Below the pieces are notes generated by a model that had not been told where the DNA came from, searched no databases, and saw only the letters and a list, made by a program, of their open reading frames with translations. Below, in pieces: positions 5,142 to 63,963 of a stretch of DNA of 64,000 bases. Source of the DNA: a virus; the IMG/VR virus record IMGVR_UViG_3300008259_005066, positions 124,001 through 188,000 of that record; one strand, given 5' to 3'. Both the position numbers and the translations under genes were made by a program. The stretch's first letter is position 1; every line of letters starts with the position of its first letter.

Positions 5142-5956
5142 GAACCTTGTCTTATTTCATCAACTGTGTATTCTGTGTGGCATATCTCAACTAACCATCG
5201 ATCTCTGTCGTGATCTACCAACGTGTCTAGATCCTCGTATTTGGTACGAATAGGAGCAGCCAAACTGCTGGGATCCACGATGACTTGGCAACCAGACAGG
5301 GCGGCCTGTATGCCCGAGCCACTGTTATAATTTATCAAGGCCCTGCAGTCATAATTGATATCAAAATCATCGTAGGTATTTTTTATAGGGCGAGGCATTT
5401 CTATGGTCACATCTCGAGGCAAAAGACCTGGATCCAATGCACTCCTGGGATGTGGTCTCACGACTATGGGCAAGTCTGTGTGTGAACGAGCCAAGGCGAT
5501 TTGTTGATTGATCCAGTGTTCCATGCTGGGCAATGATTCTACCTGGAAACTCTGTTTGTGTTGCGCGGCTATGATCAATCGTGGTTGGCCCAAGCGCACT
5601 GGATATAGTTTAACTCCCAATTTGGCAGGGCGATCCCAATCAAGATCCGTGGTGTGTCCATAGTATCCCTGTGCGGTGATGTTGTCCACAGCGATCTTCC
5701 ATGTGTGCCCACGTTTCAGTGCGCCCACATCTATCACTATCACCGGTCGGCCGAGATTTTTATAATGCTGATACACTGAACGATTGGGTTGCATGCGACC
5801 GTGCCACAACACCGACCAGATCACCGCTACATCCGCATCTAGAGAATTTTCTCTACGTTGCCATCCCTGTTGAGAACATCGATCCAAAAAGGCTCCCAAC
5901 ACTTCTTTGCTGTTGAGAGCGCACTGAGATGGAAAATAGGCGATGGTCTTGATCAC
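5108..5956 (-). CDS. Capsule-biosynthesis-type glycosyltransferase-like protein
   Basis: About 282 aa with a GTG start at 5956 (CAGGA 6 nt upstream). The frame extends further upstream, but that part is antisense to a clear plus-strand gene. Recognisable segments are PIVVRPHPRSALDP, then INYNSGSGIQAALSG, then DPSSLA. This order (RPHP, then an N-S-x-x-G-I/V-A/E loop, then a DP stretch) is typical of capsule polysaccharide transferases of the Kdo-transferase/CMP-sugar type. It is paralogous to 6755-7708 and to the C-terminal half of 7705-9369. Transcription would have to come through the plus-strand island or from a local promoter. Substrate unknown. Confidence 0.6.
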   Translation of the reverse strand: MIKTIAYFPSQCALNSKEVLGAFLDRCSQQGWQRRENSLDADVAVIWSVLWHGRMQPNRSVYQHYKNLGRPVIVIDVGALKRGHTWKIAVDNITAQGYYGHTTDLDWDRPAKLGVKLYPVRLGQPRLIIAAQHKQSFQVESLPSMEHWINQQIALARSHTDLPIVVRPHPRSALDPGLLPRDVTIEMPRPIKNTYDDFDINYDCRALINYNSGSGIQAALSGCQVIVDPSSLAAPIRTKYEDLDTLVDHDRDRWLVEICHTEYTVDEIRQGSWLKRIKTALS

Positions 5957-5962
5957 TAAATA
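5956..5962 (+). promoter_or_regulatory. late-promoter-like box CTAAATA, 7 nt before ATG 5970
   Basis: Overlaps the GTG start of the divergent gene by one base. Implies a leader of 0-2 nt. Confidence 0.6.
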
Positions 5963-5969
5963 TCCTGCG

Positions 5970-6809
5970 ATGAAATACACAGTAATTACCACGTTCCATG
6001 CCCCGGGTCTCAAACAATATGGCCAGCGCATGATCGACGCTTTTGATCGCCATTGGCCCGGAGATGTGGAACTGATAGTATATGCAGAAAATTGCCAGCC
6101 CAGATCGCCCAGCGATCGTGTGAAGATCCTGGATCTGTTGGCACAGTCACCAGATTTGGTAAATTTCAAAAATCGCTGGGGCAACGATCCCATGGCCAAT
6201 GGGTTGGTGGCCAAAGACACCGGAGTACCGTTCAAAGACAATGCTTTCAAGTGGGATGCAGTGAGATTCAGCCACAAGGTCTTTGCTGTGATCCATGCTT
6301 GCCGCACTCTAGACAGCGACTGGGTGATATGGTTAGATGCAGACACAGTGACTTTCCAGGACGTTCCGGAAAATTTCTTGAGCACCATATGCGAAGATTC
6401 AGCAATGGCCTGTTATCTGGGACGCAGGGAAAAATATCACAGCGAATGCGGATGGGTGGCCTATAATCGGCGCCATCCCGATTTGCTCAGTTTCATGGAC
6501 CGTTGGCATGATCTTTATGTCACAGGAGATCTTTTCCGCCTGCGCGAATATCATGACAGTTTTGTATTTGACGTGATCCGCAAAGACTTCCAGACGCAAC
6601 GACAGACCTCTTTCCACAATCTCAGTCCCGAACTGCCGGGCAAAGGCCCAGGGCATCCTTTTATCGCCAGTCGCTTGGGCCTATACATGGATCACATGAA
6701 AGGCTCTAAACGCAAGGCCTTGGGACATAGCCTACCCGATGATTATGATCGCAATCAAGGATTGAACAGCAGTGTGGGGTATTGGCAAGGAATCTTTGGC
6801 AGGCGCTGA
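5970..6809 (+). CDS. DxD glycosyltransferase-like protein, plus-strand island
   Basis: About 279 aa from the ATG at 5970. WVIWLDADTVTF carries the DxD motif near residue 122. An Rossmann-like N-terminus (YTVITTF) precedes it, and a His-rich C-terminus follows. It is clearly paralogous to the 269-aa protein at 11411-12220, which shares WLDAD, the CGWVAYN/SGFVLID segment and the HMK..KRK near the end. It is the only plus-strand gene in the glycan cassette: it starts 14 bp from a divergent gene and ends 55 bp inside a convergent one. It probably acts on the same glycan as its neighbours. Confidence 0.75.
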   Translation: MKYTVITTFHAPGLKQYGQRMIDAFDRHWPGDVELIVYAENCQPRSPSDRVKILDLLAQSPDLVNFKNRWGNDPMANGLVAKDTGVPFKDNAFKWDAVRFSHKVFAVIHACRTLDSDWVIWLDADTVTFQDVPENFLSTICEDSAMACYLGRREKYHSECGWVAYNRRHPDLLSFMDRWHDLYVTGDLFRLREYHDSFVFDVIRKDFQTQRQTSFHNLSPELPGKGPGHPFIASRLGLYMDHMKGSKRKALGHSLPDDYDRNQGLNSSVGYWQGIFGRR

Positions 6810-12220: not shown

Positions 12221-12876
12221 GATTTCTGCACCACTACAAATTTTTGTTTGGTGAATTCTTGGTCGGGACCAAAATATTCATCCACGGCTTTTTTAGCGCC
12301 ATCCCAACTGTGATAGTCATCAATCACGAGATACCCACCACTGACCAGTCGAGGATATAACACTTCTAACTCAATCTTTGTGCTGAGATAAAAATCTGTG
12401 TCCAATCTCAAAAATGCTATCTGATCCGGTAGATCCAATGATGTCAAAGTTTGGCTTACATCTCCCTTGATGAAATGTGTCCTATGCGGGGGCAATACCG
12501 ACCATACATTGTTCTGCACATCATCTAGATCGGCTCTGCACCAGTTGCGGCCTTCGTGTCCACCTTTGCGCCATTTTAAACTTTCAGTGGCATGTTTGCC
12601 TTCTCTATAATCATATTCAGACACTCCTTGCATACCTTCAAATGTATCATAGAGCCAATAATCTCTTTCATGATCGTCTACCATGGCAGCGGCCATGATC
12701 TGACCTCCGCGCCAGACGCCACATTCAACCACCGCTCCGGGTATGTCTCGTTGATTGAGATCTTGTATCAGGCGCTGGGTAAAAATCACGAATTTTCCGC
12801 TGGTCATCGTGAACTCGCGCACACGTTCGGCCACTGCAAGTTCCTGTTCGGAATAAGGTCTGTCAGCAGTGATCAT
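12217..12876 (-). CDS. TylF/MycF-type O-methyltransferase
   Basis: 219 aa. Landmarks of the macrocin O-methyltransferase family are present: VVECGVWRGGQ (SAM-binding loop), DTFEGM, LRLDTDFYLST (metal-binding Asp) and YLVIDDYHSWDGAKKAVDEY. TylF enzymes are Mg2+-dependent sugar O-methyltransferases acting on deoxysugars in macrolides; homologues occur in O-antigen and capsule loci. This supports a methylated sugar as the product of the cassette. The gene overlaps both neighbours by ATGA. Confident family call. Confidence 0.88.
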   Translation of the reverse strand: MITADRPYSEQELAVAERVREFTMTSGKFVIFTQRLIQDLNQRDIPGAVVECGVWRGGQIMAAAMVDDHERDYWLYDTFEGMQGVSEYDYREGKHATESLKWRKGGHEGRNWCRADLDDVQNNVWSVLPPHRTHFIKGDVSQTLTSLDLPDQIAFLRLDTDFYLSTKIELEVLYPRLVSGGYLVIDDYHSWDGAKKAVDEYFGPDQEFTKQKFVVVQKS

Positions 12877-13601
12877 CGGTAATTTCCAGCGATGCCATCG
12901 TCGCTGATGTTGTCACCACCATACATGTGCTGTATGGGTATTTCAAATGGTGCATCCTTGACTTTGCGGAACACAGCAGCCACCATGGGATCGCTTTCCC
13001 AGGTATCAAGTTCTAGTTTGCCTCTGTAGCCTTTGTTGCGACCCAGATTGTTGACGTCTAGTTTGTGTAGATATTGGGCATCACTGGATGCGATCCATAA
13101 CTCTCTCAACTCATAATCGTTTTGATTGGCCAAGCACGGAAACAGATTGGGGTTGTAGTTGAAGAATCCATGATCCACCCAGCGATAGAATGGCAGCACA
13201 TGGATCATGAATCCGCCCACACGGCAAAGGTCATGTGCATTCTTGAACACCATGTATTGGTTGAACACATGTTCCCCGGTGCCGTTGTTTGTGACCAGAT
13301 CAAACTGCTCATGGAATCCGTAGGTCTTGGGTATGTCTACGTTGAGATCCATGGCCACTGCATCTCGTTCAGTATTGACGTCAATGGCCAAGTATCGATC
13401 AAACCCTAGACTGAGATACCAATCTTTGGTTCCACCTAATTCTGCGGGCGGAGATATGCCTAGCTTTTGATAGATTTCACCGCGTGCCTTGGTGTTCTTG
13501 AGAGTTTGATTGCCCAGTTCAATGACTGTGGGCCGACGATTAGTTACAAGTTCGGGCGCTACTGAACCCACTGCTTTTGTGATTAGATTGCTGAATCCCA
13601 T
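12873..13601 (-). CDS. SAM-dependent methyltransferase-like protein
   Basis: 242 aa. The class I fold is recognised from PTVIELGNQTL (altered motif I), LAIDVNTERDAVAMDLN (acidic loop), then LVTNNGTGEHVFNQY in place of motif IV and VGGFMIHVLPF. The canonical GxGxG is modified, so catalytic competence is unproven. It is the first minus-strand gene after a late-type promoter, with GGAGGT 3 nt before ATG 13601, and probably leads the lower glycan operon. Confidence 0.6.
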   Translation of the reverse strand: MGFSNLITKAVGSVAPELVTNRRPTVIELGNQTLKNTKARGEIYQKLGISPPAELGGTKDWYLSLGFDRYLAIDVNTERDAVAMDLNVDIPKTYGFHEQFDLVTNNGTGEHVFNQYMVFKNAHDLCRVGGFMIHVLPFYRWVDHGFFNYNPNLFPCLANQNDYELRELWIASSDAQYLHKLDVNNLGRNKGYRGKLELDTWESDPMVAAVFRKVKDAPFEIPIQHMYGGDNISDDGIAGNYR

Positions 13602-13616
13602 GTGACCTCCATGGGG

Positions 13617-13623
13617 TATTTAT
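13617..13623 (-). promoter_or_regulatory. late-promoter-like box ATAAATA upstream of 13601
   Basis: 15 nt before the ATG, with GGAGGT between. One of the leadered late promoters. Confidence 0.55.
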
Positions 13624-19595: not shown

Positions 19596-19602
19596 GTAAA
19601 TA
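19596..19602 (+). promoter_or_regulatory. late-promoter-like box GTAAATA, 7 nt before ATG 19610
   Basis: No Shine-Dalgarno site between box and ATG. Divergent from the gene 32 promoter. Confidence 0.55.
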
Positions 19603-19609: not shown

Positions 19610-20170
19610 ATGACACAGTATAACACATCTACACAACAAGTCAAGATATATGATCAAGTCTGTCAATTGCAATCAGTGGCACCGAACTGTTGGCTTGTGG
19701 ATGAGTGTTTTTGCTCCGAAACATTGTCATGGATGCAGGACATTGTGATAAACGAACAAAATCAATTCGCAGTTTCACGACCCCATCGCAGACTGATGTT
19801 GCAACCGGGCCCGGATCATGCCCGATTACAACAGATAGGGTTGGATATCATACCTTCATTGAATCAGATCTCTGGATTGGATCTCAATCTCATGATAGTG
19901 AAATTTTGGCTAGACTTGCCGGGCTTTGCCTGCCAGACACATTCAGATTCACCAGACATCATAGTTACCTATCAAGTCTATGTTGACATTTGGTCTTCAA
20001 AACAGGATCCCTGTCACGGTATCGAATTCTTGCATGTGGATCCGCCATACAAGTTAGAGTTGGCCAATAACAAAGGTTATATCAATGTCAATACCGATCT
20101 CAAACCTCATAGGGTATTGCCTGGAATCGGCACACGTGCCAGCGTGACATTTCAATACAATTTGGTATAA
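19610..20170 (+). CDS. 2OG-Fe(II) oxygenase-like protein
   Basis: About 186 aa from ATG 19610; an in-frame start at 19583 lies upstream of the late box. A double-stranded beta-helix iron site is suggested by QTHSDSPDIIVTYQVYVD (HxD), then LKPHRVLPGIGTRASVTF (distal His followed by an Arg). It is a plus-strand island: divergent from gene 32 and overlapping the 3' end of the next minus gene by 19 bp. Substrate unknown. Confidence 0.55.
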   Translation: MTQYNTSTQQVKIYDQVCQLQSVAPNCWLVDECFCSETLSWMQDIVINEQNQFAVSRPHRRLMLQPGPDHARLQQIGLDIIPSLNQISGLDLNLMIVKFWLDLPGFACQTHSDSPDIIVTYQVYVDIWSSKQDPCHGIEFLHVDPPYKLELANNKGYINVNTDLKPHRVLPGIGTRASVTFQYNLV

Positions 20171-20715
20171 CTCAATACCAGCACTTCTCTCACTGTGTTG
20201 CCCGGCACGCAGGACAGCATGCCACAGAATCCACGAGGTTCATTGACATAGATGCTGGCTAGATTGGGTTCATAATTGACCACATCAACATCGTGTCTAG
20301 TGAGCCGGCGCATAGGCTGATAGTCTAGTTCGCTTTCCGCATTGACCTGGCTGTCATGACAGAAACAGAATGCCATACGGCAGTCGGATTCTTCGCCCAT
20401 GCCAATCTGCACCTGCACCAAGATGTCAGGATGTAGCCTGTGCATCATTATGGAACTGCCGGCTAGATCGATGCTGACATAGGCCACTTGCGGTGCCAGA
20501 GGCCGGCCGACCAGTTGGCTCACACGTTCAGTGTTGGCTTCTACTATCTGTTGTAATTCGGGAGTGTCTGACCATGGTGTGAGCAAACGGTCGTCATACT
20601 GCATGGAAAATGGCACGCGAGATCGTCTATATGCCAGTTTGATCGATCGCCATTGATCGGGTTCAAAGAAATCTTTGGCCGTCCACAGTTGCTGATTGAT
20701 CCGGACAGCGTTCAT
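20152..20715 (-). CDS. Degenerate 2OG-Fe(II) oxygenase-like protein
   Basis: 187 aa. HRLHPDILVQVQIGMG provides an HxD-like pair, and the end (GNTVREVLVLSY) parallels GIGTRASVTFQY in the convergent neighbour, but the expected distal His before it is not seen (SCVPGN). So it is either catalytically dead or a member of another jelly-roll family. It starts with an ATGA overlap on the stop of the 503-aa gene and is co-translated with it. The fold call is tentative. Confidence 0.4.
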   Translation of the reverse strand: MNAVRINQQLWTAKDFFEPDQWRSIKLAYRRSRVPFSMQYDDRLLTPWSDTPELQQIVEANTERVSQLVGRPLAPQVAYVSIDLAGSSIMMHRLHPDILVQVQIGMGEESDCRMAFCFCHDSQVNAESELDYQPMRRLTRHDVDVVNYEPNLASIYVNEPRGFCGMLSCVPGNTVREVLVLSYTKLY

Positions 20716-22223
20716 GACCGAGCTAGATTCAATAATCTATCTAGCCCTTGGCTTTCTTTGATGCCTATATATTCGGTTCGTTGACCAGCGGGTCTGATGC
20801 CCACTTCCATGCTGGGGTATTTGTTCTTGAGATTCTGTGCGTGTTTCCGGGCCTGCTCACGATTGCCATATTGATGTAGGCCGGATTCGATACCATCACG
20901 CCTGCGTATCACATCATAGGGTCCTTGAGCATCTGGTTCTGCAGAGATGTCGCCCATGGCCAATCTTTTTACCTGTCCTTCTTTGACTGCATCAAGGTCT
21001 ATGGCATCCATACCTGGTATGCCCAACTGTTCCAATCTTTTTTGCACACGAGGATCGTCCCACACATTGGCGTCAGGGTTGGTCATGGCCATGTCTTCCA
21101 AGATGTCAAACAGTTCGTCGTCGCCAATGATGTCATACAGTTGTTCTGTGGCATTGGAAGCATCAGGTCCCACGATGAGATCTTTGCTCATCAAGATCTG
21201 TAATTTTTTTACCTGCTCAGGAGTCTCTGGTATGGCCCAGGTGCCTTCCATCACACGGTCAGTCCATGATTCAAATTCGTCGGCTTCGGGGAGATCCTGT
21301 TCTTGCAGTCGTGCCAGCACAGGCAAGGCCTGTTCTACTCTAGGATCCAAAGTCTGTTTCACGAACAATTCGCGTATGGTCTCCACTGCTTCGTCTATCT
21401 CTGTGATCTCAGCAGGATCAAAACTGTCACGTTCTTCGTGATAGCCTCTGCGACCTATCATCTTCTTGGCCTTGGCTTTGAGATCAGCGTAGTGGCGTAT
21501 GGCAGCTTCTACCATGTGCGCGGCTTCACCGGTATAGTCACGATGCCGTGCCGCACGCACGAAGTTGCTGAGCGTTTTCATCTCATCCACGATCTCTGTG
21601 ATGTGGATGCCAAAGGCATCGTAGGGTGTGCCACCTTCGGCCACGTGTCGTGCCAGCATGCGACCATGTGTGAGGCTGCGGCTGGGCACACGGAAACGTT
21701 CACCTTCGGCATTCTCTACATAGAGGCTTTCGATATGGCGGAAACGTGCATCACCTTCACCCAAGGTTTTGTTGTGTTTGATCACAAGCCGTGCGCGATT
21801 GGGTTGATCTGAGTAGGAAATCTTGCGGTTGCCATAGTAGCCTTCAAACAGGCTTTCTTTGACGGCAGCCATGGTCTTCATGTTGTATTTGAGTCTGCTG
21901 AGATTTTTTACGTTAAACGTGAGCAGATTGCGTTTGGCGAACATGCGAACCAGATACAGGAAATCATACCAGTCGCCACGATCATTGCCTTCCATGGCTC
22001 GTGCCATGTTGTCTCCAAAATACATGTCCAGGTTGTTTTCACCGTCCAGGGCCACTACCACAGTGCCATAGTCCTTTTCAGGAGTGGCATAGTCAAAACT
22101 GATGATGTCTGCATCAGCAGGATCAGCGGCGGGTTTGCCTTGGCTGTCCAGGGCTTCGGGTTCAAAATCCTGCGCTACGAGCAGGTCATATAGTTGGCGT
22201 GCGGGTGTGTTTTTATCGCTCAT
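20712..22223 (-). CDS. Conserved phage hypothetical protein downstream of terminase
   Basis: 503 aa, no enzymatic motif recognised. Segments such as RMFAKRNLLTFNVKNLSRLKYNM and SLTHGRMLARHVAEGGTPYDAFGIHI recall long unnamed proteins in aquatic T4-like phages. It is charged, without membrane segments; a helical middle (~230-300) precedes an acidic, proline-containing part. The C-terminus ends in IKESQGLDRLLNLARS. A leaderless late promoter implies late expression, so a virion or assembly role is likely, but none is shown. Confidence 0.6.
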   Translation of the reverse strand: MSDKNTPARQLYDLLVAQDFEPEALDSQGKPAADPADADIISFDYATPEKDYGTVVVALDGENNLDMYFGDNMARAMEGNDRGDWYDFLYLVRMFAKRNLLTFNVKNLSRLKYNMKTMAAVKESLFEGYYGNRKISYSDQPNRARLVIKHNKTLGEGDARFRHIESLYVENAEGERFRVPSRSLTHGRMLARHVAEGGTPYDAFGIHITEIVDEMKTLSNFVRAARHRDYTGEAAHMVEAAIRHYADLKAKAKKMIGRRGYHEERDSFDPAEITEIDEAVETIRELFVKQTLDPRVEQALPVLARLQEQDLPEADEFESWTDRVMEGTWAIPETPEQVKKLQILMSKDLIVGPDASNATEQLYDIIGDDELFDILEDMAMTNPDANVWDDPRVQKRLEQLGIPGMDAIDLDAVKEGQVKRLAMGDISAEPDAQGPYDVIRRRDGIESGLHQYGNREQARKHAQNLKNKYPSMEVGIRPAGQRTEYIGIKESQGLDRLLNLARS

Positions 22224-22230
22224 GGTATTA

Positions 22231-22237
22231 TATTTAT
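22231..22237 (-). promoter_or_regulatory. late-promoter-like box ATAAATA, 7 nt before ATG 22223
   Basis: The first A of the box is the last base of the terminase TAA stop. No Shine-Dalgarno site. Confidence 0.55.
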
Positions 22238-23802: not shown

Positions 23803-23807
23803 ACTGT

Positions 23808-23814
23808 TACTTAC
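23808..23814 (-). promoter_or_regulatory. late-promoter-like box GTAAGTA, 5 nt before the terminase ATG
   Basis: The G-variant also seen before 2482 and 63951. Back to back with the HNH promoter. Confidence 0.45.
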
Positions 23815-23828
23815 CAAAATATACGCCG

Positions 23829-23835: not shown

Positions 23836-23840
23836 TCATT

Positions 23841-47159: not shown

Positions 47160-47170
47160 TATTTATTTAG
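47160..47170 (-). promoter_or_regulatory. late-promoter-like boxes CTAAATA/ATAAATA overlapping a fibre stop
   Basis: Tandem overlapping boxes CTAAATAAATA. The TAA at 47169-47167 is the stop of the 1361-aa fibre. AGGAG precedes ATG 47141. Confidence 0.65.
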
Positions 47171-50100
47171 GTTAACACACCAAGATCCACACCCTCTAGC
47201 ACTTCGCCCACTGGGTCCATCATGCTGTAAACTTCGCCCAAGTTCACACCAAACGGATCCGTGGCTGATGATTCAAACGGTGCTTCCTGCACAGTCTGGA
47301 CGAAATTGTAGCTGAGGTCAAAATTACCCGTGGAGCCAGGCACCGGTTGCACCGTGGAGTTAGGATACTGGGTAGCACCACCACCTCCACCACCGCCACT
47401 CTGATCTTCCCATGTAAGTCCACCAGCACCATTGGTAGTGAGAACTTGGGCGGCATTGCCATACCCACTAGGAAATATATAGGTAAAATTTCCGGTCAGT
47501 GTAGCCGGTGATCGGAGTCCTATATAGTTGCTGTTGTCACTGTCGTTGAGGAACAGTATACCGCGATTTTGTATTTCAACGTTGGACGACGCTTTGATCA
47601 GAGCGCCAGTGACGTTGCCTGTGGCCACTAATTGTCCTGTGGTAACAAGATTACCACCAGTGATGTTACCCGTGGCGTCAACGCGACCTGCTGTAGTGAT
47701 ATTTCCACCTGACACATTGCCAGTGGCAATTACTTGACTTCCTGTTGTTAAATTACCGCCTGTGACATTGCCTGTCACATCTAAACTTGTAAGTGTGCCT
47801 AGAGATGTGATATTGGGCTGTGCGGCCGTGTTCAACGTTCCTGTGAGCGTGGTTGCAACTATGGTAGAAGCACCTAGATTACCAACGTTGGCGTTACCGG
47901 TGACAGACAACACTCCGGATGTTATGAGGTTGCCGCCTGTGATGTTGCCCGTGGCCACTACCTGTGCACCGGTAGTAAGATTGCCACCAGTGACATTTCC
48001 AGACGCTGTCAAACTGGTCAATGTTCCTAGAGAACTTATATTAGGTTGTGCTGCCGTGGTCAGTGTGCCGGTTATCAGCGTTCCACTTAGGTTGCCGCTG
48101 GTAATGTTTCCAGTGACCCCTAATGATGTTAACGTGCCAACCGAAGTAATGTTGGGTTGTGCCGCTGTTGTTACTGTGCCTGCTGTGGTGGCTGCGCCTG
48201 TCAAGTCACCCACGAATGTGGTCGAGGTCACACTGGTCAGGCCAGCCACGGTGGTCACTGTGGCGCCCAGTGTGAGTGCTGTTGATCCCAGTGTGACAGC
48301 GGCATTGGCCAATCTTGCCTGTGCCAAGGTGCCACTTGAAATATTGTCAGCACTGATACTGGAGACGTTGGCGCCTGATCCATTGAGTGTGCCCACGAAG
48401 TTGCCACTGGTGACATTGCCTGTGACGGCCAAATTTGTGAGTGTGCCAACTGAGGTAATGTTGGTTTGTGCGGCTGTGCTTATGGTTCCTGTCAGTGTAG
48501 TTGCTGTGACTGTGGTAGCTCCAAGATTGCCCACGTTGGCATTGCCAGTGGCAGATATTGTTGCGGATTCAAGCCCACCAACTATGAGATTACCATAGTT
48601 GTTTACTGTGACAACATCATTTGATACTGATACATTGGTGGCTGCTATGAGTTTACCTGCTGAGTTATCATAGCCCATGAAAGCGGCCTGTTCTGTGGTA
48701 GTGTAATACCAAAGTTCCTGGCCTCGATCTTTGCCGTCGTTGCTGGTCAGCGGTGTGTTGTTAGCGCCACGACCTAACCCAATGATTGGATCAACTACGT
48801 TAAGATTGGTGACGTTGACGGAAATAATATTGCCACTCACAGTAAGATTTCCTGCTATTGTGACGTTGTCGCTGGCAGTAAGTGTTCCTGTTGACACTGT
48901 GCCTGTAGTGACCAAATTGCCACCCGAGACATTACCGGTGGCAGTTAAACTTGTCAGTGTACCAACGGATGTAACATTGGGTTGTGCGGCTGTTTCTAGA
49001 GTACCAGTAACAGTAGTGAATGCACCCCGTGTTCCGGAAATATTACCAGAACCCACGTTTCCAGTCACGCTCAACGAATCAAGTGTTCCCACTGATGTGA
49101 TATTTGTTTGTGCGGCAGTGGTCAGCGTGCCAATGATATTGGTACCAATGAGATTACCACCAGTGACGTTGCCTGTTGCTGTGACTTGCCCTGCGGTAAC
49201 GATATTGCCGCCGGTGACGTTGCCAGTGGCTGTGATTGTTGTTCCTGCTGATACCAGCCCTGCAGTAACAAGATTGCCACCTGTGATGTTGCCGGTGGCG
49301 TCAACACGACCTGCTGTGACGAGATTGCCACCTGTGACATTGCCAGTAGCTACTACCAATCCTGCTGTGCCAAGATTGCCCACGTTGGCATTGCCGGTAG
49401 CATTGAGTGTACCGGTGATGTTAGCACCTGTTGTGGTGGCTACAAGCACTATGGAAGAATTTGGAGCCAACGCGATATTGGCAGCAGATGTGGTATTGAT
49501 TTGTAGTGAAGTTCCAGAATCAAAGATGTTACCACTGAGTAAAAGATTGGCACCCGACACATTGCCGGTGATATTGGCATTGCCAGACACGCTTAAAGAA
49601 TTAGCTATAGAAACAATGGCATTGGCCAAAAATGACACAGTGCCGTTACCTGCTACTGGACCAACACTAATGTTAGTTGTAGATCCTGCCGCCCCGAGTG
49701 TTCCAATACTAATGGTCTTGGTTGACCCAGATGCAGTGACTCCGTTGCCAATGGCAATAGTTTGAGTTGCAGTGCTACGGCCAATGGCAATTGCACCAGT
49801 GGCTGAGGTGCCACCAATGGTCAAAGGACCACTGGTCTGGCCGGTCATTATATTGAGTGTGCCACTGGTTATGGTAGTGAATAAACTGGTGGTGCCGGTG
49901 GTAGTTGTAGTTGCCACATTAGGCGTAGACATTGATGTAGCATGGCTGGCTAACGCAACAGTCAAAATATTAGTGCTGGGATTGAAAGTTAGGCCTGTAT
50001 CATCAGCGAATAGTGATCTATAACCACCAGCTGAGCCACTTGGACTTACATAAGGTAAATTGTAGGTTACGTTGTCATCTGGAGATTCTGTAACAAATAT

Positions 50101-51252
50101 AAAGTTTGCGACATTGGCCGTGCCTGCAAGATTTCCAATAAAGTTAGGAGCTGTGATATTGCCAGTGGCATTGATGGTGCCAGTGACATTGGCGCCTGTG
50201 GTTGTTGCGACTACTACGTTTGTTCCATTTGGAGCAAGTGTAACATTACCACTTGATCCAGTGATCAAGAACAATGCACCTGTATCAACAATATTACCAG
50301 ATAGATTTATATTGCCACCGGTTATGTTGCCAGTGGCTGTGATCTGCCCTGCTGTGCCAAGATTGCCCACGTTGGCATTGCCAGAAACGGTAATAGCAGT
50401 TAAGTTAGCATTGGTAGCACCCAGGTTACCAACGTTGGCATTGCCCGTCGCTGACAGCACGCCACTGGTTATAAGGTTACCGCCGGTGATATTGCCCGTG
50501 GCCACAACAGTATTGGCATTGACTTCTGGAGAAGCTCCTGATAATACAGTCGTGCCGCCAGCAGGATTGGTAATGATAACTGCTGTGGCATTGGCAGAGA
50601 TTTGTGCGTTGCCAAGATAGATAGTGGAGTTGGCTAGATAGATATCTTTCCATCGGCTAGTAGTTGTACCTAGATCGTAAGTGACATTGGCCCCAGGTAA
50701 TACGCTACCATAAAAAGTTGGACTGTCATTGACTGCAAATGTTATAGTATCTGTTGTAGCATTGCCTGTGATTACAATGTTATTGCCAGTTGAGAATGTA
50801 ACTGTGTCGCCCACAATGTCTGCCAGTACCGCAGTGCCATTGGCATAGATGTTGCCAAACGCGAATGCAGAGTTCTGTTCAAAGGTCAGTGCAGTGACGC
50901 CAATGGTGATGGGATCGTTTGTGGTCAGTTTCCACTGGGTGTCTTTATAGGTCACACCTTCGGTGACCATGACGATGGTTCCAGCATTGAGTTCGCCGGA
51001 CTCGTTGGTATCTACTGATCTAATCCAAGTGCCATTTGATCCTGTGCCCAACACTGATACCTGATAAACACCGTTTTGGCTACCAGTGGATTGGCCGGCT
51101 ACTAGGATTCTGCTACCTATGCTCAAACTCACACCATCCACTGTGCTGGGCGCACCGCCTGCCAGTGTGACGTCGGTCAGCGTGATCACGCGGACCGCTT
51201 GTTTGTAGTCTATGTCAAATATCTGATAGGCGCGAGGTTTAGTTAATCCCAT
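47167..51252 (-). CDS. Large repetitive tail fibre protein
   Basis: 1361 aa. The first ~130 residues hold an attachment domain (VTLTDVTLAGGAPSTVDG, VYQVSVLGTGSNGTW, QWKLTTNDPI). The middle ~1000 residues are short beta repeats of the form A-T-G-N-(V/I)-T-G-G-N-L, giving a long shaft. The end (YNFVQTVQEAPFES and a Pro/Glu-rich tail) lacks the C-module of the other fibres. The repeats hold dense Asn-X-Thr/Ser sequences. Receptor recognition is likely at the C-terminus. Confidence 0.75.
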   Translation of the reverse strand: MGLTKPRAYQIFDIDYKQAVRVITLTDVTLAGGAPSTVDGVSLSIGSRILVAGQSTGSQNGVYQVSVLGTGSNGTWIRSVDTNESGELNAGTIVMVTEGVTYKDTQWKLTTNDPITIGVTALTFEQNSAFAFGNIYANGTAVLADIVGDTVTFSTGNNIVITGNATTDTITFAVNDSPTFYGSVLPGANVTYDLGTTTSRWKDIYLANSTIYLGNAQISANATAVIITNPAGGTTVLSGASPEVNANTVVATGNITGGNLITSGVLSATGNANVGNLGATNANLTAITVSGNANVGNLGTAGQITATGNITGGNINLSGNIVDTGALFLITGSSGNVTLAPNGTNVVVATTTGANVTGTINATGNITAPNFIGNLAGTANVANFIFVTESPDDNVTYNLPYVSPSGSAGGYRSLFADDTGLTFNPSTNILTVALASHATSMSTPNVATTTTTGTTSLFTTITSGTLNIMTGQTSGPLTIGGTSATGAIAIGRSTATQTIAIGNGVTASGSTKTISIGTLGAAGSTTNISVGPVAGNGTVSFLANAIVSIANSLSVSGNANITGNVSGANLLLSGNIFDSGTSLQINTTSAANIALAPNSSIVLVATTTGANITGTLNATGNANVGNLGTAGLVVATGNVTGGNLVTAGRVDATGNITGGNLVTAGLVSAGTTITATGNVTGGNIVTAGQVTATGNVTGGNLIGTNIIGTLTTAAQTNITSVGTLDSLSVTGNVGSGNISGTRGAFTTVTGTLETAAQPNVTSVGTLTSLTATGNVSGGNLVTTGTVSTGTLTASDNVTIAGNLTVSGNIISVNVTNLNVVDPIIGLGRGANNTPLTSNDGKDRGQELWYYTTTEQAAFMGYDNSAGKLIAATNVSVSNDVVTVNNYGNLIVGGLESATISATGNANVGNLGATTVTATTLTGTISTAAQTNITSVGTLTNLAVTGNVTSGNFVGTLNGSGANVSSISADNISSGTLAQARLANAAVTLGSTALTLGATVTTVAGLTSVTSTTFVGDLTGAATTAGTVTTAAQPNITSVGTLTSLGVTGNITSGNLSGTLITGTLTTAAQPNISSLGTLTSLTASGNVTGGNLTTGAQVVATGNITGGNLITSGVLSVTGNANVGNLGASTIVATTLTGTLNTAAQPNITSLGTLTSLDVTGNVTGGNLTTGSQVIATGNVSGGNITTAGRVDATGNITGGNLVTTGQLVATGNVTGALIKASSNVEIQNRGILFLNDSDNSNYIGLRSPATLTGNFTYIFPSGYGNAAQVLTTNGAGGLTWEDQSGGGGGGGATQYPNSTVQPVPGSTGNFDLSYNFVQTVQEAPFESSATDPFGVNLGEVYSMMDPVGEVLEGVDLGVLT
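47580..50560 (-). repeat. Degenerate repeat array coding fibre shaft (GN-V/I-T type)
   Basis: Blocks of about 36-60 nt recur, coding ATGN(V/I)TGGNL plus a variable spacer. The DNA is degenerate and interrupted by other fibre segments, including YNFG.. and GLGRGANNTPL stretches also found in other fibres here. Confidence 0.7.
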
Positions 51253-51271: not shown

Positions 51272-51278
51272 TATTTAT
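51272..51278 (-). promoter_or_regulatory. late-promoter-like box ATAAATA for the 1361-aa fibre
   Basis: 19 nt before ATG 51252. The Shine-Dalgarno is weak (TGGG). Confidence 0.5.
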
Positions 51279-54933: not shown

Positions 54934-56262
54934 TTACCAGGCGCCAATCACTATCATAATTTTGTGCGGGCCTGCACCGCACGTTTCCAGTGCTTTGCCC
55001 ACGATCACACCCGGGCGCCAGTCATTATCTGCTAGTTTTTCTGCATGTCCAGCACGGCCTGACGTGGTCAGCACATCGCCTTTGGCCACAGGACCTACCA
55101 CCCAGCAAGGTACACGTCCTGCCATGGCTATGGGCACACCTGCTTGACCTGCGTTCATGATATAGGCAGGATCAGTGGAAATCACACCGGCCAATCGTTG
55201 ATCAGCATACTGGTAACTTTCTGTGACTTCGCTGTCGCCCGCAAAAATCATTACCCACCCGGGCTGATAAGCGCCATCGGCAGCAAAATATTCCGCCAAG
55301 TCCGCATACTGAGCAGATGTTGCTTTGGCAAATATAGTATTGAAATATGTGCCGCTGGAACCAATGTTGCCAACGCCGTTGGCATTGTTGTTGAATATGT
55401 TGCCTACACTTAAATTGCCAGTGCCAACATCTAGCCCGCCGCCGCTGGATATCGTGGCAGGAGTGGTCCCATCTGCGGCAAAGAAACCAATGGCATTGCC
55501 AGTTTGGTTGGTCAGTATCACGTTGCCAAGATAGATCGAATTGCCTGCTAGATATAGATCATTCCATCTCAGAGTGGTGTTGCCCAAATCATAAGTGACG
55601 TTGGCTGTCGGTAACAGATTGCCTGTGATATTGACTTGTGCGGTAGCGTCACTGACATTTACAATAGCATTGCCAGCGGAGTTGCTGATTTCTGTGACCA
55701 CTTGTAACTGGCTTATGAAACGTATTTCAATTTGATCCGCCACCGATGGAGCTTCTGTGAATGTTATGACGTTGCCTGTGACAGAGTAAGCAAAAACAGG
55801 AACTTGGCTCACACCGTTGATGCTGACCAAAATAGAATCAGATGTAGCAGTTTCATTCAAGGCAAATACCGAAGTTGCGCCATCGCCATTGATAATTTGG
55901 CTGGTGATATCTACTAAATCTTGACCTACCACATCCCACTCAGTGCCGTCATAGACTTCGACCAACAATGTATTGGTATTGAATCGCAACGCACCTTGAT
56001 CAGGTGATCCGGGACGCTGTGCAGTATTACCCGTGGGTATGGTCAGCGCAGTGGTACTAGTAATCTGTGTCACACCAGCAGAGGCAGGTATCAGCACTAG
56101 ATTACCTGTTGTGGCTGTTAAAGTAACGTTGGTGTTGGATGTGATTGCTGTGCCGTCAATGGTAAAGTTATCAACTATCAACTGGCCTTGGATATTGGCT
56201 GTGGTTCCATTGAAGGTAAAGTTAGCACTGTCCACTAGATAACTAGTTTCCGCCGGTGACAT
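54934..56262 (-). CDS. Tail fibre, C-terminal fragment (frameshifted from 56243-59980)
   Basis: 442 codons. It has no adaptor domain and no ribosome site, and its ATG lies in a shaft repeat of the preceding gene (20-nt overlap, +1 frame). It continues as YLVDSANFTFNGTTANIQGQL, the same beta domain as in the complete fibre (TGNTAQRPGSPDQG; QIINGDGATSVF), and the C-module ATSAQYADLAEYFAAD. It is best read as the 3' part of one fibre gene of about 1682 codons broken by a 1-nt gain or 2-nt loss near 56245-56262. Confidence 0.7.
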   Translation of the reverse strand: MSPAETSYLVDSANFTFNGTTANIQGQLIVDNFTIDGTAITSNTNVTLTATTGNLVLIPASAGVTQITSTTALTIPTGNTAQRPGSPDQGALRFNTNTLLVEVYDGTEWDVVGQDLVDITSQIINGDGATSVFALNETATSDSILVSINGVSQVPVFAYSVTGNVITFTEAPSVADQIEIRFISQLQVVTEISNSAGNAIVNVSDATAQVNITGNLLPTANVTYDLGNTTLRWNDLYLAGNSIYLGNVILTNQTGNAIGFFAADGTTPATISSGGGLDVGTGNLSVGNIFNNNANGVGNIGSSGTYFNTIFAKATSAQYADLAEYFAADGAYQPGWVMIFAGDSEVTESYQYADQRLAGVISTDPAYIMNAGQAGVPIAMAGRVPCWVVGPVAKGDVLTTSGRAGHAEKLADNDWRPGVIVGKALETCGAGPHKIMIVIGAW

Positions 56263-59200
56263 TGCCTGTGGCCGATATGGTAGTTGCTGCCGATACGGCA
56301 GAATTGGAAATTAAATTACCAACACTGACGTTGCCATTGACGTTTGCCTGTCCTGTGGCTGAGATATTGGCCACATACAAATCGGTTATGCTAACATTGC
56401 CAACCACTGCTGAATTGGCAATGAGATAGTTGCCCTGCACGTTGGCTGGCGTGGTTATGTTGCCTGTGCTGGTCAGTGTTCCTAGATTGATGATGTTACC
56501 ACTGGTCACATTGGCCAAGATAGTGATATTACCACCATTGATGTTGCCGGATCCTACAGATAAATTACCTGCTGTGACGTTGGCGACAATGACTGCGCTG
56601 TTGGCTATGTTTAGATCTTGTCCCGATATCAATGCGTTGGATATGACATTGCCACCAGTGATGTTACCAGTGGCAGTGATTGTTGTAGACGCACTGATCG
56701 CGGCATTGGAAACTAAATTACCACCGGTAATGTTACCGGTAGCTGATACAGTAGTAGCAGCCGATACAGCGGCGTTTGATGTCAAGTTACCACCGGTAAC
56801 ATTACCGGTAACATTGACGTATCCGGTGGCTGAGATATTTCCTACATCTAGATCTGTGATCGTGACATTGCCAATCACGGCTGAATTAGCAATGAGATAG
56901 TTGCCTTGCACATTGGCAGGAGTGGTGATGTTACCGGTACTGTCTATTGTTCCAAGATTAACGATGTTACCACTGTTTACATTGACTGTTACAGTGATAT
57001 TTCCAGTTGAAATATTTCCAGAACCAGTAGAAACATTACCTGCTGTGACGTTGGCAGTAATGACAGCACTGTTAGCGATAGAAAGATCTTGACCAGTGAT
57101 CAATGCGTTGGCTATGACATTGCCACCAGTGATGTTTCCTGTGGCAGAAATTTGGCCTGCTGTGGCTAGATTACCGCTGACTGTGTTGCCAACAATCAGC
57201 GCAGATTCTCCGTAGAGATTACCAATTTGCCAAGTTCCAAATTGATTGACAGTCACTATCTCGTTGGCGATGGTCACATCTTTGGCTGCCAGGAGATTTC
57301 CTGCGGAATTATCGTAACCTATGAAAGCAGATTTCTCAGAAGTTGAATAATACCACAGTTGCTCGCCGCGATCCTTGCCATCATTGGTAGTCAATGGAGT
57401 GTTGTTGGCTCCACGACCCATGGAAATGATTGGGTCCTCAATGTTGAGGCTGGTCACATTGTTGTAGACTAAATCGCCATTGACAGTGAGATTGCCATCT
57501 ATGATAGCATCGCCGTTGACTTGTAGATTGCCTTGGGCAGTGATGTCATCGCCAGTGATTGACCCAGTCACAGTGAGCGTGTCTGTTTGGATGTTACCAC
57601 CGGTGCCATATCCTACCTGGAAGATATTGGTTGCTTGGTCATAGGTTAAATTAGCGGATGCGCCAAAATCACTGTTGAGGTTGTATTGTATCTGGGTATT
57701 GGACCCAGCGGGCTGTTGGAAATCAACAGGAGCACCATTGGCATAATAGTATCCATCAGTGAGTATGTTGCCCACTGCGGCATTGCCGGTGATCGTGAGT
57801 GTGATTCCACTGATAGAACCGTTGGATATGATATTGCCACCCGTGATGTTACCAGTGGCAGTGACAGTGGTAGCGGCCGATATGGCAGCATTGGATATGA
57901 CATTGCCACCCGTGATATTACCAGTGGCCGATATAGTGGTTGTGGCTGATATGGCAGCATTTGAAGTCACATTGCCACCGGTGATATTGCCAGTGGCAGA
58001 AATTGTAGTCACAGCAGATATGGCAGCGTTTGACACTAAATTACCACCTGTGATATTGCCAGTGGCACTCACAGTGGTAGCGGCACTGATAGCGGCATTT
58101 GATGTCAAGTTACCACCGGTGATGTTACCAGTGGCCGATATAGTGGTTGTGGCTGATATGGCAGCATTGGATATCACATTGCCACCCCATACATTACCCG
58201 TGGCTGCCACAAATCCTTGAGTGCTGAGATTACCGACTATCGCTGTTTCGGTGGCTGTGAGAGTCGCGGTATAGACACCAAGATTGGCATTTAGATTGGC
58301 GGCCGTGATATTGCCATTGACTGTGAGGCTGTTGCCTACAGCATTACCAATGTTGGGTGTGACCAAATTGGCCCCGGGCTTGACTGATATATTGCCCGAT
58401 CCGTCAAAGGCCGTGGTGTCGTTGTCCACCTTGGCAGCGAACACAGTGCCATTGAGCACCAAACCTGCGGCTGTGTTGGCCGAGTAGACTTGGCTGGCAC
58501 TAAACTGTGTGAATTCAATGTTAGCATAGCCAATGATAAATGGACCTGGAGGTGCTGTTTTTACATAACTTTCTCCGGCTCCGGTGTTACCTGCCTGAAC
58601 ATAGAAATAGGAACCTTGGTCCAGACCAGTGGAAGTATCTGGTTCGTATGTATCCGTATCGCTAGAACGTGTGAGTATCCATGGCGCAGACACATTACCA
58701 GTCTGGCTGACCACATACACACCATTTTCATAGGCCAAGGCTTGCTGATAAACCAACACACGCTGACCCACTGTGGGATTGACACCATCCACGGTGAGTT
58801 GAGCATTGACATTGGCAGTGAGCGTGGCTCCTATACCAGAATTCACTGTCACACCTTGTGTGAGACCAGCCGCCGATGTGATGTTGGCCACTGGTACACC
58901 ATTGTAAATGGTAGTGAGCACGGCCGCTGATGCATTGGGAGTAGATACTACAAAATAAGCAGTGTTGCCTGCGATGCCAGAAAAAGAATTTGCAAACCAC
59001 AGTTGATCATTGATCTGCAGATTGGCCGCTGAAGAAAACACTACCACGTTACCTGCTATGGTATCTGTCACTGTGAAAGTGTTGCCGCCTTGGGTATAAG
59101 TTGCGGCGGGCAATGCTACCGGAGTCTCAACATAGACTGGAGTGTGGATATGGATTCCCGATGACACCGCATCGTCAACATATTGTTTGGTAGCGGCATC

Positions 59201-59980
59201 ATAGGACTGTTGTGGATTGGACAGCCCATTGATCCACTGTGAGTTCATCACTATGTTGCCAGTGCCGTCCCATTGTAGCACACCGCTGGCAGAATTCAGC
59301 GTGAGATCACCAGAACTGGTTGTGACAGTGTTGGTTACAATGTTGGGTGCTGTCACATTGCCAATGGCCACTATGTTGCCAGAAGAATACAAGTTGCCAC
59401 CATTGATATTGCCAGTGGCCGTGATTGTTGTGGCCGCTGAAATAGCGGCGTTGGATATGACATTGCCACCCGTGATATTACCAGTGGCAGTGACAGTGGT
59501 AGCGGCCGATATGGCAGCATTGGACACGATGTTGCCACCTGTGACATTGCCACCCACTGTGACTGTGTTTGAAATGTTTACGATATTGCCAGTGAAATAC
59601 TCCTGCACCACCAGATTGGCCACTACCAGGTTGCCAGATATGCTGACATTACCTATCACAGCGCCGGTGGATATCAAGTTACCAGCAGTTAAATTCGCAG
59701 TGACGGCTACATTGGTGCCATCATAGGTAAATCCAGAATTAGTTAGAGCTAACTGTGTAGACCCAGCATAAAATACGCCATTGGCCGTGGCCGAAGTGAT
59801 GCGAACATTTGACGCATTGGCCACACCCAAAACTGTGAAATCATCCGCAGGTGTGCTGGTTAGCACGCCAACACGATTGTTGTCTACATCAAAGTAGATC
59901 AGGTTGCCCTGGATGCTGAGATTGGCACCACGTTGCAGGTTGTCCTGCAATATATTGCCGGAAATGCGAGATATTGCCAT
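56243..59980 (-). CDS. Large repetitive tail fibre, N-terminal fragment
   Basis: 1245 codons. N-terminus MAISRISGNILQDNLQ is fibre-like; ~260-500 hold the same adaptor-type domain (QRVLVYQQALAYENGVYVV, SYVKTAPPGPF) as in the 1361-aa fibre. Two blocks of 20-residue repeats (SATGNITGGNVISNAAISA) flank it. It stops abruptly inside a repeat (GNVTGGN, TAG at 56243-56245). AAGGG precedes ATG 59980 with a late box. The C-terminal part is in the +1 frame at 54934-56262. Confidence 0.75.
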   Translation of the reverse strand: MAISRISGNILQDNLQRGANLSIQGNLIYFDVDNNRVGVLTSTPADDFTVLGVANASNVRITSATANGVFYAGSTQLALTNSGFTYDGTNVAVTANLTAGNLISTGAVIGNVSISGNLVVANLVVQEYFTGNIVNISNTVTVGGNVTGGNIVSNAAISAATTVTATGNITGGNVISNAAISAATTITATGNINGGNLYSSGNIVAIGNVTAPNIVTNTVTTSSGDLTLNSASGVLQWDGTGNIVMNSQWINGLSNPQQSYDAATKQYVDDAVSSGIHIHTPVYVETPVALPAATYTQGGNTFTVTDTIAGNVVVFSSAANLQINDQLWFANSFSGIAGNTAYFVVSTPNASAAVLTTIYNGVPVANITSAAGLTQGVTVNSGIGATLTANVNAQLTVDGVNPTVGQRVLVYQQALAYENGVYVVSQTGNVSAPWILTRSSDTDTYEPDTSTGLDQGSYFYVQAGNTGAGESYVKTAPPGPFIIGYANIEFTQFSASQVYSANTAAGLVLNGTVFAAKVDNDTTAFDGSGNISVKPGANLVTPNIGNAVGNSLTVNGNITAANLNANLGVYTATLTATETAIVGNLSTQGFVAATGNVWGGNVISNAAISATTTISATGNITGGNLTSNAAISAATTVSATGNITGGNLVSNAAISAVTTISATGNITGGNVTSNAAISATTTISATGNITGGNVISNAAISAATTVTATGNITGGNIISNGSISGITLTITGNAAVGNILTDGYYYANGAPVDFQQPAGSNTQIQYNLNSDFGASANLTYDQATNIFQVGYGTGGNIQTDTLTVTGSITGDDITAQGNLQVNGDAIIDGNLTVNGDLVYNNVTSLNIEDPIISMGRGANNTPLTTNDGKDRGEQLWYYSTSEKSAFIGYDNSAGNLLAAKDVTIANEIVTVNQFGTWQIGNLYGESALIVGNTVSGNLATAGQISATGNITGGNVIANALITGQDLSIANSAVITANVTAGNVSTGSGNISTGNITVTVNVNSGNIVNLGTIDSTGNITTPANVQGNYLIANSAVIGNVTITDLDVGNISATGYVNVTGNVTGGNLTSNAAVSAATTVSATGNITGGNLVSNAAISASTTITATGNITGGNVISNALISGQDLNIANSAVIVANVTAGNLSVGSGNINGGNITILANVTSGNIINLGTLTSTGNITTPANVQGNYLIANSAVVGNVSITDLYVANISATGQANVNGNVSVGNLISNSAVSAATTISATGNVTGGN
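57780..58240 (-). repeat. Tandem 60-nt repeats in fibre shaft
   Basis: Successive 60-nt units coding for a 20-residue ISA-TT-x-ATGNITGGN-x-x-SNAA block. Some units differ by only a few bases (e.g. those from 57831 and 57891). Similar units occur at 59400-59560 and 56640-56800. Confidence 0.8.
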
Positions 59981-59996: not shown

Positions 59997-60003
59997 TATT
60001 TAT
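59997..60003 (-). promoter_or_regulatory. late-promoter-like box ATAAATA for the fibre at 59980
   Basis: 16 nt before the ATG, with AAGGG in the leader. Confidence 0.6.
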
Positions 60004-60754: not shown

Positions 60755-61387
60755 TTAGAATATTATGCTGAAAACAATGGCTTTGGATTTGCTTATCAAC
60801 TCATCCTGATTGGCATCGTTGTTGAAGTATATGCCAGTGCCTCCGCTACCAGGCACATCGGATGTTATTGTGGCCGCATTGCCAATGGCAGTGGGAGTGG
60901 CGCCGTTGTATTCCAGCACCAAAGTTCCATCTAGTGTGAGTTCGCTGGTGGCATAATCAAATGTCAGACCGGCATTGCCACCAAATGTGCCATCTCCGTT
61001 GTTGAACTGCACCGCTGTGTTTGAACCACCCGGAACTACTGTGTTACCTGTGGCGATAGGAGTCCATGATCCTGTCAAGCCCGTGGTGTCTGTGGACGAG
61101 GTCAGTTCCCATTGTGCTGTGTTGTTGTTGTATCGCAGGCCTGCAAAGTTTGAAGCAGTGCGATGCGTGAGCAAACCAGAATTTGATGCGTAGCTTCCTG
61201 TGTTGGACGAGTTGACCAGGATGAACGGATCTTTGACATTGAGTTCGTCCACATTGATATAGGTCAAATTACCTTGCACCGTCAAGTTTCCACTCACAGT
61301 GGTATCCGTGTCGATATAGACCTTCTGCGTGGGAGGATCAATGGTCTGGATGTAGTAATCGCCGTCGATGCGTTTGTAACTGGTCAT
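60755..61387 (-). CDS. Fibre-like protein, short
   Basis: 210 aa. GNLTVQGNLTYINVDELNVKDPFIL is the same module as GNLTVNGDLVYNNVTSLNIEDPIIS in the long fibres, and GGSNTAVQFNNGDGTFGGNAGLTFD matches GSNTQILFNNNGLIAGDAGITYD. It is thus a shortened fibre composed of the central modules. AAGGG 8 nt before ATG 61387 and a late box indicate late expression. Likely an accessory fibre or adaptor. Confidence 0.6.
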   Translation of the reverse strand: MTSYKRIDGDYYIQTIDPPTQKVYIDTDTTVSGNLTVQGNLTYINVDELNVKDPFILVNSSNTGSYASNSGLLTHRTASNFAGLRYNNNTAQWELTSSTDTTGLTGSWTPIATGNTVVPGGSNTAVQFNNGDGTFGGNAGLTFDYATSELTLDGTLVLEYNGATPTAIGNAATITSDVPGSGGTGIYFNNDANQDELISKSKAIVFSIIF

Positions 61388-61971
61388 ATCTGCCCTTTTG
61401 CTGTATTTAGCAGGGTTTGGAATTCCAAAATTGGCATGCTACGCAGATTTTTCACTGTGTCAAAACCGGCCACTCGAGCGGATTGCAGGCCTTCTACCCG
61501 TATGAATTCTCTGGCAGGAAAATCCCCACAGATCTGTATGATCTGTTTGACCCAATTGCCGCTGAATGTGGGCGGATCCTGGCTTTTTTTGTAGAACTGC
61601 GTGTCAGCATAGAGATTGTTGAACTGCCCATTGGTGGTTCCAAGATCAAATCCCAGCAGGTAAATGCAGTGATATCCATCAAGACAAGCCAAGGCCACTG
61701 CATTGGGACCGGAACTGAATCCTTGATATTTGCTGTCCAATCTGTGCGCACCGCTTTCAGGCAAGGGTTTGCGGGTGTAGAAACGATGCTTCTTGGCATA
61801 GCCCGAATCTTGTATGGCCGTGGCGATGGGACGGTCAGTGGCTATCAGCACATCAGGTGTGAACGTGCGATACAAGGCATTGCATCCATACACTGGCCCT
61901 TGTGTTTTCAATTGTGCAAGATCGATGGGTTCGCGGCTGCGGCCGTTGCCCAAAACAAATGCTGTGGTCAT
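61384..61971 (-). CDS. MptE/DUF115-like protein
   Basis: 195 aa. FVLGNGRSREPIDLAQL (Gly-rich nucleotide-binding start), YGCNALYRTFTPDVLIATD, then SGPNAVALACLDGYHCIYLLGFDLG. This pattern is common in marine phages and is placed with MptE-like or DUF115 proteins, some of which handle nucleotide-activated sugars or pterins. Paralogous to 45805-46476. The ATG at 61971 lies directly against the T-tract of a terminator, and the stop overlaps the 210-aa gene (ATGA). Confidence 0.55.
   Translation of the reverse strand: MTTAFVLGNGRSREPIDLAQLKTQGPVYGCNALYRTFTPDVLIATDRPIATAIQDSGYAKKHRFYTRKPLPESGAHRLDSKYQGFSSGPNAVALACLDGYHCIYLLGFDLGTTNGQFNNLYADTQFYKKSQDPPTFSGNWVKQIIQICGDFPAREFIRVEGLQSARVAGFDTVKNLRSMPILEFQTLLNTAKGQI
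61404..61410 (-). promoter_or_regulatory. late-promoter-like box CTAAATA for ATG 61387
   Basis: Lies inside the 3' end of the MptE-like gene, 16 nt before the ATG, with AAGGG between. Confidence 0.55.
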
Positions 61972-62877: not shown

Positions 62878-62884
62878 TATTTAT
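62878..62884 (-). promoter_or_regulatory. late-promoter-like box ATAAATA overlapping a stop codon
   Basis: TAA (62883-62881) is the stop of the next gene upstream. Drives the 253-aa virion gene through a 93-nt leader. Confidence 0.55.
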
Positions 62885-63951
62885 GATCTTTCGCCATTAA
62901 GCAGGGCTACCACCGGTGCCAGGATCTGTTGTTCCACATTGCCTGAATGGAACCAATGGAAATTGTGTTCAATATGGAAACGATTGGCATGCCACCAATC
63001 TCGTGTGTCTGCGTGATGCTGATTGACCACTTCGGCCACGAGATGCAACCTACTGCTGAAATTCTGTTTGAGATCATAGTCATCACAGAAAGTATGGAAT
63101 CCCAGTCGTTTCAACCATGCAGTGGTTCCAGGCGCACCCACCACAAGGAATAGTTGTCCGGCAGCGATGGGTTTCCAGATCTTTTCGCTAGTAAAACTGA
63201 TCAAGGCCGATGTCTCTGTGACCACATTGCACCATGCATCTTGATAGGCTGGATGCGCCAAAGAATGGTCGTTTTGTCCTAAGGTTTCGCCTTGCCATGC
63301 CATGGGAAAATCTCGTATGTTTGTGATGCATCGTTGTGCCAGTTCATCGCCTATGAGATTGGCCAATCCACGATATTGGTATGCAGTGATTGGATGCCCC
63401 TGATAGGGACAGCGATCATAGAAACTGTAGATAAACTTGTCCAGCAGTCCAAGATCTTTGACCATGGTATAGAACACCAAACGATGGAACGTGGGATTGC
63501 GATTGAGACAGGAGAACGCATGTGTTCTATCATGACTGGGGAACTCGCGACACAGCGATTGTTTTTTAAAAACAAACAACCAACTGGGATATGTAATCTC
63601 TCGGAGATGTTGATGCTGTGTGAGATCAAACTGGCTCAAACCAAAAAAACAAGGTATACGGAATTCACCAGCGATGTTATCCAGTATGATAGACTTGTCT
63701 CGATAGTCTGTGACAGGATCTTGCGTGCCGTCAAATATGATCTGTTCAAATCTGATGTTATCGGCGCTGGCCCGATCAACCACGGTCTTTACGTAATGTT
63801 CTATGTCTTGACCTTTGACTAAATTGCAGTCAATGACCAGGGTTGGACGATGGACCTGTTTCAACAACGGTTCATAGTGCTGGTGAGGATTGTTTTCAAC
63901 AAAATCAAACTGATCAGTGTTGAAGTTGTAGCGCCAATGCAGATCTTGCAT
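62881..63951 (-). CDS. Glycosyltransferase-like protein of the EKTFKA family
   Basis: 356 aa. C-terminal half: LISFTSEKIWKPIAAGQLFLVVGAPGTTAWLKRLGFHTFCDDYD, the same motif order as the protein at 14399-15427. The first half (PCFFGLSQFDL, FVFKKQSL, AFSCLNRNP) is distinct; the SCLNR-x-P opening is typical of this phage family. It may transfer a sugar to fibres, being next to them. The start is ATG 63951, 5 nt after ATAAGTA. Confidence 0.55.
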   Translation of the reverse strand: MQDLHWRYNFNTDQFDFVENNPHQHYEPLLKQVHRPTLVIDCNLVKGQDIEHYVKTVVDRASADNIRFEQIIFDGTQDPVTDYRDKSIILDNIAGEFRIPCFFGLSQFDLTQHQHLREITYPSWLFVFKKQSLCREFPSHDRTHAFSCLNRNPTFHRLVFYTMVKDLGLLDKFIYSFYDRCPYQGHPITAYQYRGLANLIGDELAQRCITNIRDFPMAWQGETLGQNDHSLAHPAYQDAWCNVVTETSALISFTSEKIWKPIAAGQLFLVVGAPGTTAWLKRLGFHTFCDDYDLKQNFSSRLHLVAEVVNQHHADTRDWWHANRFHIEHNFHWFHSGNVEQQILAPVVALLNGERS

Positions 63952-63956
63952 CGCAA

Positions 63957-63963
63957 TACTTAT
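63957..63963 (-). promoter_or_regulatory. late-promoter-like box ATAAGTA, 5 nt before ATG 63951
   Basis: G-variant as before 2482 and 23802. No Shine-Dalgarno site. Confidence 0.45.

Follow-up and report, generated by a model that had tools for sequence, protein, structure and literature searches.

Studies of leaderless translation have mostly used mycobacteria or a handful of cases in E. coli. Among phages and mobile DNA, leaderless cases such as lambda, P2 and Tn1721 are few (PMC4633059). The AR9 paper calls phage transcripts often leaderless, yet the leaders of AR9 itself measure 26-491 nt. The late promoters of T4 carry the consensus TATAAATA, which spans positions -13 to -6 (PMC1524935). 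Our search of the open-licence literature turned up no T4-type phage with leaderless late genes, which does not prove that none exists. The sequence described here appears to join T4-type late promoters with leaderless mRNAs, both of them already known.

The window, i.e., the whole stretch of 64,000 nucleotides that was analysed, corresponds to positions 124001-188000 of a 209,518-bp virus record (48% GC). PHROG matches in the record revealed T4-type terminase, tail sheath and portal genes, and the terminase can be aligned to T4 gp17 at 29%. Gene starts were taken from a home-made caller that relies on coding potential alone and is blind to the box. The starts of minus-strand genes are quoted as their high-end coordinate, and the spacing d counts the bases lying between the end of TAARTA and the ATG.

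A first-pass annotation of this DNA had placed TAARTA 4 to 7 nt before eleven ATGs, and all 11 boxes were found at these starts. On the minus strand, TAAGTA precedes at d=5 the genes of a radical SAM protein (box 2488-2493, gene 1310-2482) and of the terminase large subunit (box 23808-23813, gene 22237-23802), as well as gene 62881-63951 (box 63957-63962), where a purine, G, occupies +5. The same spacing separates TAAATA from the plus-strand ATGs of an HNH endonuclease gene (box 23830-23835, gene 23841-24377) and of gene 37744-38091, which has a weak HNH match (box 37733-37738). At d=4, TAAATA (31601-31606) precedes the minus-strand gene 31114-31596. The other boxes are TAAATA at d=7. On the plus strand, they stand before gene 5970-6809 (box 5957-5962; 279 aa, coding score 115), gene 19610-20170 (box 19597-19602) and the virion structural protein gene 42682-44010 (box 42669-42674; implied leader ACT). 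On the minus strand, they precede two virion structural protein genes, 20712-22223 (box 22231-22236), where an A at +5 followed by CC implies a 3-nt leader ACC, and 24823-26445, a phrog_1645 protein (box 26453-26458; implied leader ATT). The terminase and HNH endonuclease genes lie back to back at 23802-23841, with two putative near-class late promoters inside 38 bp, and close relatives (L018 and L020) retain this box pair. The greedy caller overlooked gene 5970-6809, as it had extended a minus-strand ORF (5108-6388) across it. The first 420 bases of this ORF are almost without coding signal, the opposite plus-strand ORF has such a signal, and the true start of the minus-strand gene is probably near 5900-5956. 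Elsewhere in the record, a phage peptide deformylase gene (13066-13512, minus strand) is likewise of the near class.

The late box also lies farther from starts, and several such minus-strand genes of the window served as leadered comparisons. They are gene 12873-13601 (box 13617-13622, d=15, SD GGAGG), gene 30483-31088 (box 31106-31111, d=17, SD AGGGG), gene 39245-40015 (box 40034-40039, d=18, SD AGGAG), gene 46473-47141 (box 47160-47165, d=18, SD AGGAG), gene 47167-51252 (box 51272-51277, d=19), gene 56243-59980 (box 59997-60002, d=16, SD AAAGGG) and gene 60755-61387 (box 61404-61409, d=16, SD AAGGG). At 13590-13622, an out-of-frame ATG stands at d=4 after the box, and the true, SD-led ATG comes 11 nt later (TAAATAccccATGgaggtcacATG); at this one gene, the two arrangements overlap. 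Over the whole record the spacing is two-peaked, with 20 cases at d4-8, 2 at d9-14 and 31 at d15-31, and in about one third of the starts with a box, that box abuts the ATG. The initial view that promoter-proximal genes look leaderless holds for the near cases, about 25 genome-wide, whereas some 60% of the late promoters near starts lie at 15-31 nt and are mostly SD-led. The two-mode translation proposed with it is seen as a near box without SD against a far box with SD, with the amendment that the late promoters themselves also split into two modes.

Very probably, these features reflect a T4-type late transcription system giving rise to many leaderless mRNAs alongside SD-led ones. A large uncultured T4-type phage would transcribe its late genes from TAARTA promoters with a gp55-type sigma factor on the host RNA polymerase. 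At about 25 promoters the box stands 4-8 nt from the ATG. Transcription would start on the A of AUG at d=4 and 5 and, at most of those with d=7 and 8, on a purine three bases before AUG. A box this near would leave the mRNA no room for an SD, so that it would be translated leaderless or nearly so, the ribosome recognizing an AUG at or near the 5′ end. Late promoters of a second set, 15-31 nt upstream, would give ordinary SD-led mRNAs, and operon-internal genes would use an SD or a stop-start overlap. Read-through transcripts from upstream promoters could be translated as well. The use of the boxes, the exact 5′ ends and the leaderless translation are what we infer from features that are established in the sequence: the spacing, its two peaks, the lack of SD, the initiator-type bases, the conservation in the clade and the gp55 homologue.

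The arrangement is conserved among uncultured relatives, taken as 80 IMG/VR loci carrying a related terminase (best-segment identity 66-88%; 1.04 Mb). Counted over all their genes, the box is found 40 times at d=4, 93 at d=5, 11 at d=6, 48 at d=7 and 5 at d=8, the spacing of 6 being rarer than 5 and 7. The near class (d4-8) totals 197 cases, compared with 9 at d9-14 and 100 at d15-31. At least one near case occurs in 76 of the 80 loci; one locus, L072, has far-class promoters only. The terminase ATG has its box at exactly d=5 at 28 of the 80 loci, with diverged flanking DNA. Six larger relatives (91-332 kb, complete or nearly) have 35, 10, 13, 12, 8 and 5 near cases, and 1-2 each at d9-14. Marine relatives at 56-59% identity, which came from probably misbinned contigs in GTDB genome bins, likewise show near boxes and retain the arrangement of the phrog_1645 gene starting at 26445. 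The bins of these clade contigs (L153-L159) are labelled Neomarinimicrobiota, Euryarchaeota, Betaproteobacteria, Pelagibacter and Rickettsiales. They were rejected as a guide to the host, since the seven hits are spread over five unrelated groups and are most likely misbinned. Protein families number 78 after near promoters and 90 after far ones. Twenty-two families have both forms, in different phages, and genes therefore switch across the spacing gap between near and far.

With the T4 box at -13 to -6, +1 would be the sixth base past the box, that is the A of the ATG at d=5; this rule is borrowed from T4, and the gp55 of the clade is diverged. In the d=5 class, the base before the ATG (the fifth past the box) is a purine in 1 of 43 protein families and a pyrimidine in 42, compared with 54% purine and 46% pyrimidine in box-less genes (p=2e-12). 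Such an exclusion would be expected if a purine at this position drew the start to itself, leaving the mRNA with a leader of 1 nt. Among the d=7 genes, 14 of 20 families have a purine as the fifth base past the box (Fisher p=1e-8; one family gives 36 of the 66 d=7 genes, and 20 contribute in all). The two bases before the ATG are there mostly pyrimidines, and the d=8 class is alike, shifted by one. An absent leader, with +1 on the A of AUG, is thereby implied for the d=4/5 classes. For the d=7/8 class a 3-nt leader is most likely, rather than none, a reading less secure than that of the 0-nt leader. The earlier suggestion of a +1 at or next to the AUG is supported at d=5, by the T4 box position and the purine exclusion, and gives way at d=7/8 to the probable 3-nt leader.

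The boxes might also be promoters from which initiation takes place a few nucleotides upstream of the T4 position, producing leaders of 2-6 nt. The calibration of +1 on T4 alone and the divergence of gp55 speak in its favour. However, purines are shunned right before AUG at d=5 and are present at an equal distance from the box at d=7, which points to a +1 at the fifth to sixth base. Furthermore, the start is ATG-specific: ATG is strongly preferred at the near boxes, the start-like codons at d=5 after TAARTA in the record being ATG in 15 cases, GTG in 3, TTG in 2 and CTG in 1. We consider such short leaders very unlikely.

If transcription from the near boxes begins on the AUG or three bases before it, a more general rule may be put forward, tentatively and with some doubt. 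The leader could be discrete and strictly selected, being 0 nt (d=4/5), 3 nt in the order purine, pyrimidine, pyrimidine (d=7/8), or no shorter than about 10 nt and accompanied by an SD, intermediates being avoided and the sigma70-type +1 also falling on the AUG. A 3-nt leader would then correspond to one codon in the E site with AUG in the P site, and this would hint at a rule of geometry, undescribed before, for leaderless initiation by 70S ribosomes.

The near starts also differ in their translation signals. Strong SD pairing is predicted at 0 of 20 near starts; the share is 65% for far starts, 37% for starts lacking a box and 9% for random positions. An in-frame downstream ATG with a strong SD within 30 codons is absent from all 20 near genes, and the homology of the terminase starts at residue 1. 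The 4-nt stop-start overlap with an upstream gene is found in 1% of near genes and 32% of box-less genes (seven contigs). A/T-rich start contexts serve some bacteria, and TAARTA-ATG could be such a signal, replacing the SD on transcripts that begin further upstream; the near starts without SD fit this explanation too. Against it, the identical box is also found at 15-31 nt alongside an SD. The box matches the T4 late promoter in a phage that encodes a gp55 homologue, the near genes are nearly devoid of 4-nt overlaps, and the presence of a purine at one set distance from the box distinguishes d=7 from d=5, as an initiator would. We hold this explanation to be very unlikely.

The spacing was further compared with the background of the same genome. 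TAARTA occurs at 126 sites in the whole record. Fifteen of them are followed by an ATG at exactly d=5 and nine at d=7, where other positions have about 3 each. The box stands at d4-8 before 20 of 250 called ATG starts and 13 of 8,627 other ATGs, the latter 13 including some real starts overlooked by the caller. Twenty of 59 boxes fall inside one 5-nt slot (binomial p=2e-8). TAAATA at d=5 and d=7 emerges de novo among the top enriched words before starts, beside AAGGAG. Same-letter scrambles of the motif fall short of TAAATA, the nearest (AAATAT, ATAAAT and GTAAAT) overlapping the box itself. The motif count against random background, which the first-pass annotation had proposed, was run and gave a clearly non-random spacing here and in about 80 related contigs; the random-background explanation was rejected by the chance, motif-scrambling and reversed-pattern controls. 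That an A/T-rich box happens to precede ATGs, by chance or through an annotation artefact, is suggested by the picking of the first examples by eye and is hardly credible given the excess at called starts, the weaker scrambled motifs, the conservation in relatives and the lack of enrichment in eight cultured T4-type phages.

Late regions of these cultured phages were run through the same programs as the clade. No start with a box at d4-8 was found in those of T4, S-PM2, S-SRM01, Atu_ph07, Phosso, Vibrio 2.275 and Serratia BF. Over whole genomes, TAAATA has an ATG at d=4/5 in 61 cases versus 12 at d=10/11 in four clade members, and in 77 versus 84 in the eight cultured phages. In the terminase tree, a single branch (support 91/94) sets the sampled clade members apart, PA5oct being their immediate neighbour outside it; the label used in the tree marks the clade and not each locus (L072, for instance, has far-class promoters only).

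The record encodes a gp55 homologue of 308 aa outside the window (record 206172-207098, minus strand; E=2e-12 to S-PM2 gp55), also present in four relatives. The match sits in the C-terminal half of the protein. Compared with cyanophage gp55, this protein and those of the relatives have about 170-190 extra N-terminal residues. A search with PHROG 223 for a gp45-type clamp gave no match in the record, and it matched no control genome either. Neither bS21 nor IF3 had a match in the record, so nothing found suggests that the phage alters the ribosome for leaderless use. The three sigma70-like cases of the first-pass annotation were also found, all on the minus strand: TATAAT at 1272-1277 (d=6 to ATG 1265, in a gene that leaves the window at its left edge) and at 39208-39213 (d=6 to ATG 39201), and a -10-like TAAAAT at 42632-42637 (d=5 to ATG 42626). 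When seven contigs were pooled, TATAAT preceded starts at d5 in 6 cases, at d6 in 12 and at d7-13 in four in total, many with an extended TG. This spacing agrees with the three cases above and suggests leaderless starts beyond the late genes; a few promoters of the early type (TATAAT at 5-6 nt from the ATG) likewise appear leaderless.

If the proposed reading is true, a group of uncultured phages with many relatives in environmental metagenomes runs much of its virion expression on mRNAs that bypass the SD. Translation of the late genes would be uncoupled from SD-based regulation and from host factors of 30S initiation. Dozens of natural gene pairs, leaderless versus SD-led, would be at hand for testing leaderless translation. 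The box spacing also provides a simple rule to correct gene starts in genomes of the clade.

The nearest cultured relative by terminase (52%) is Pseudomonas phage PA5oct (Wroclawvirus). It resembles the clade in its T4-type terminase and in TAAATA boxes with an SD at 19-29 nt, but 50 kb of it contain a single box at 4-8 nt, and its whole genome shows no enrichment (20 sites at d=4/5 versus 27 at d=10/11). T4 shares the TAAATA core, the gp55-type sigma and the late structural genes, and the far SD-led promoters described here resemble its own. However, in the 50-kb late region of T4, 0 called starts have a box at 4-8 nt, most boxes being at 22-28 nt, usually with an SD. Furthermore, the first T of TATAAATA is unconserved here, and G is tolerated (TAAGTA). 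As for lambda, P2, Tn1721 and mycobacteria, the likeness consists of a 5′-terminal AUG without SD and of the coexistence of leadered and leaderless genes (PMC4633059). The difference from lambda, P2 and Tn1721 is that here much of the late programme (terminase, portal and other virion genes) would be leaderless, through a phage-specific class of promoters.
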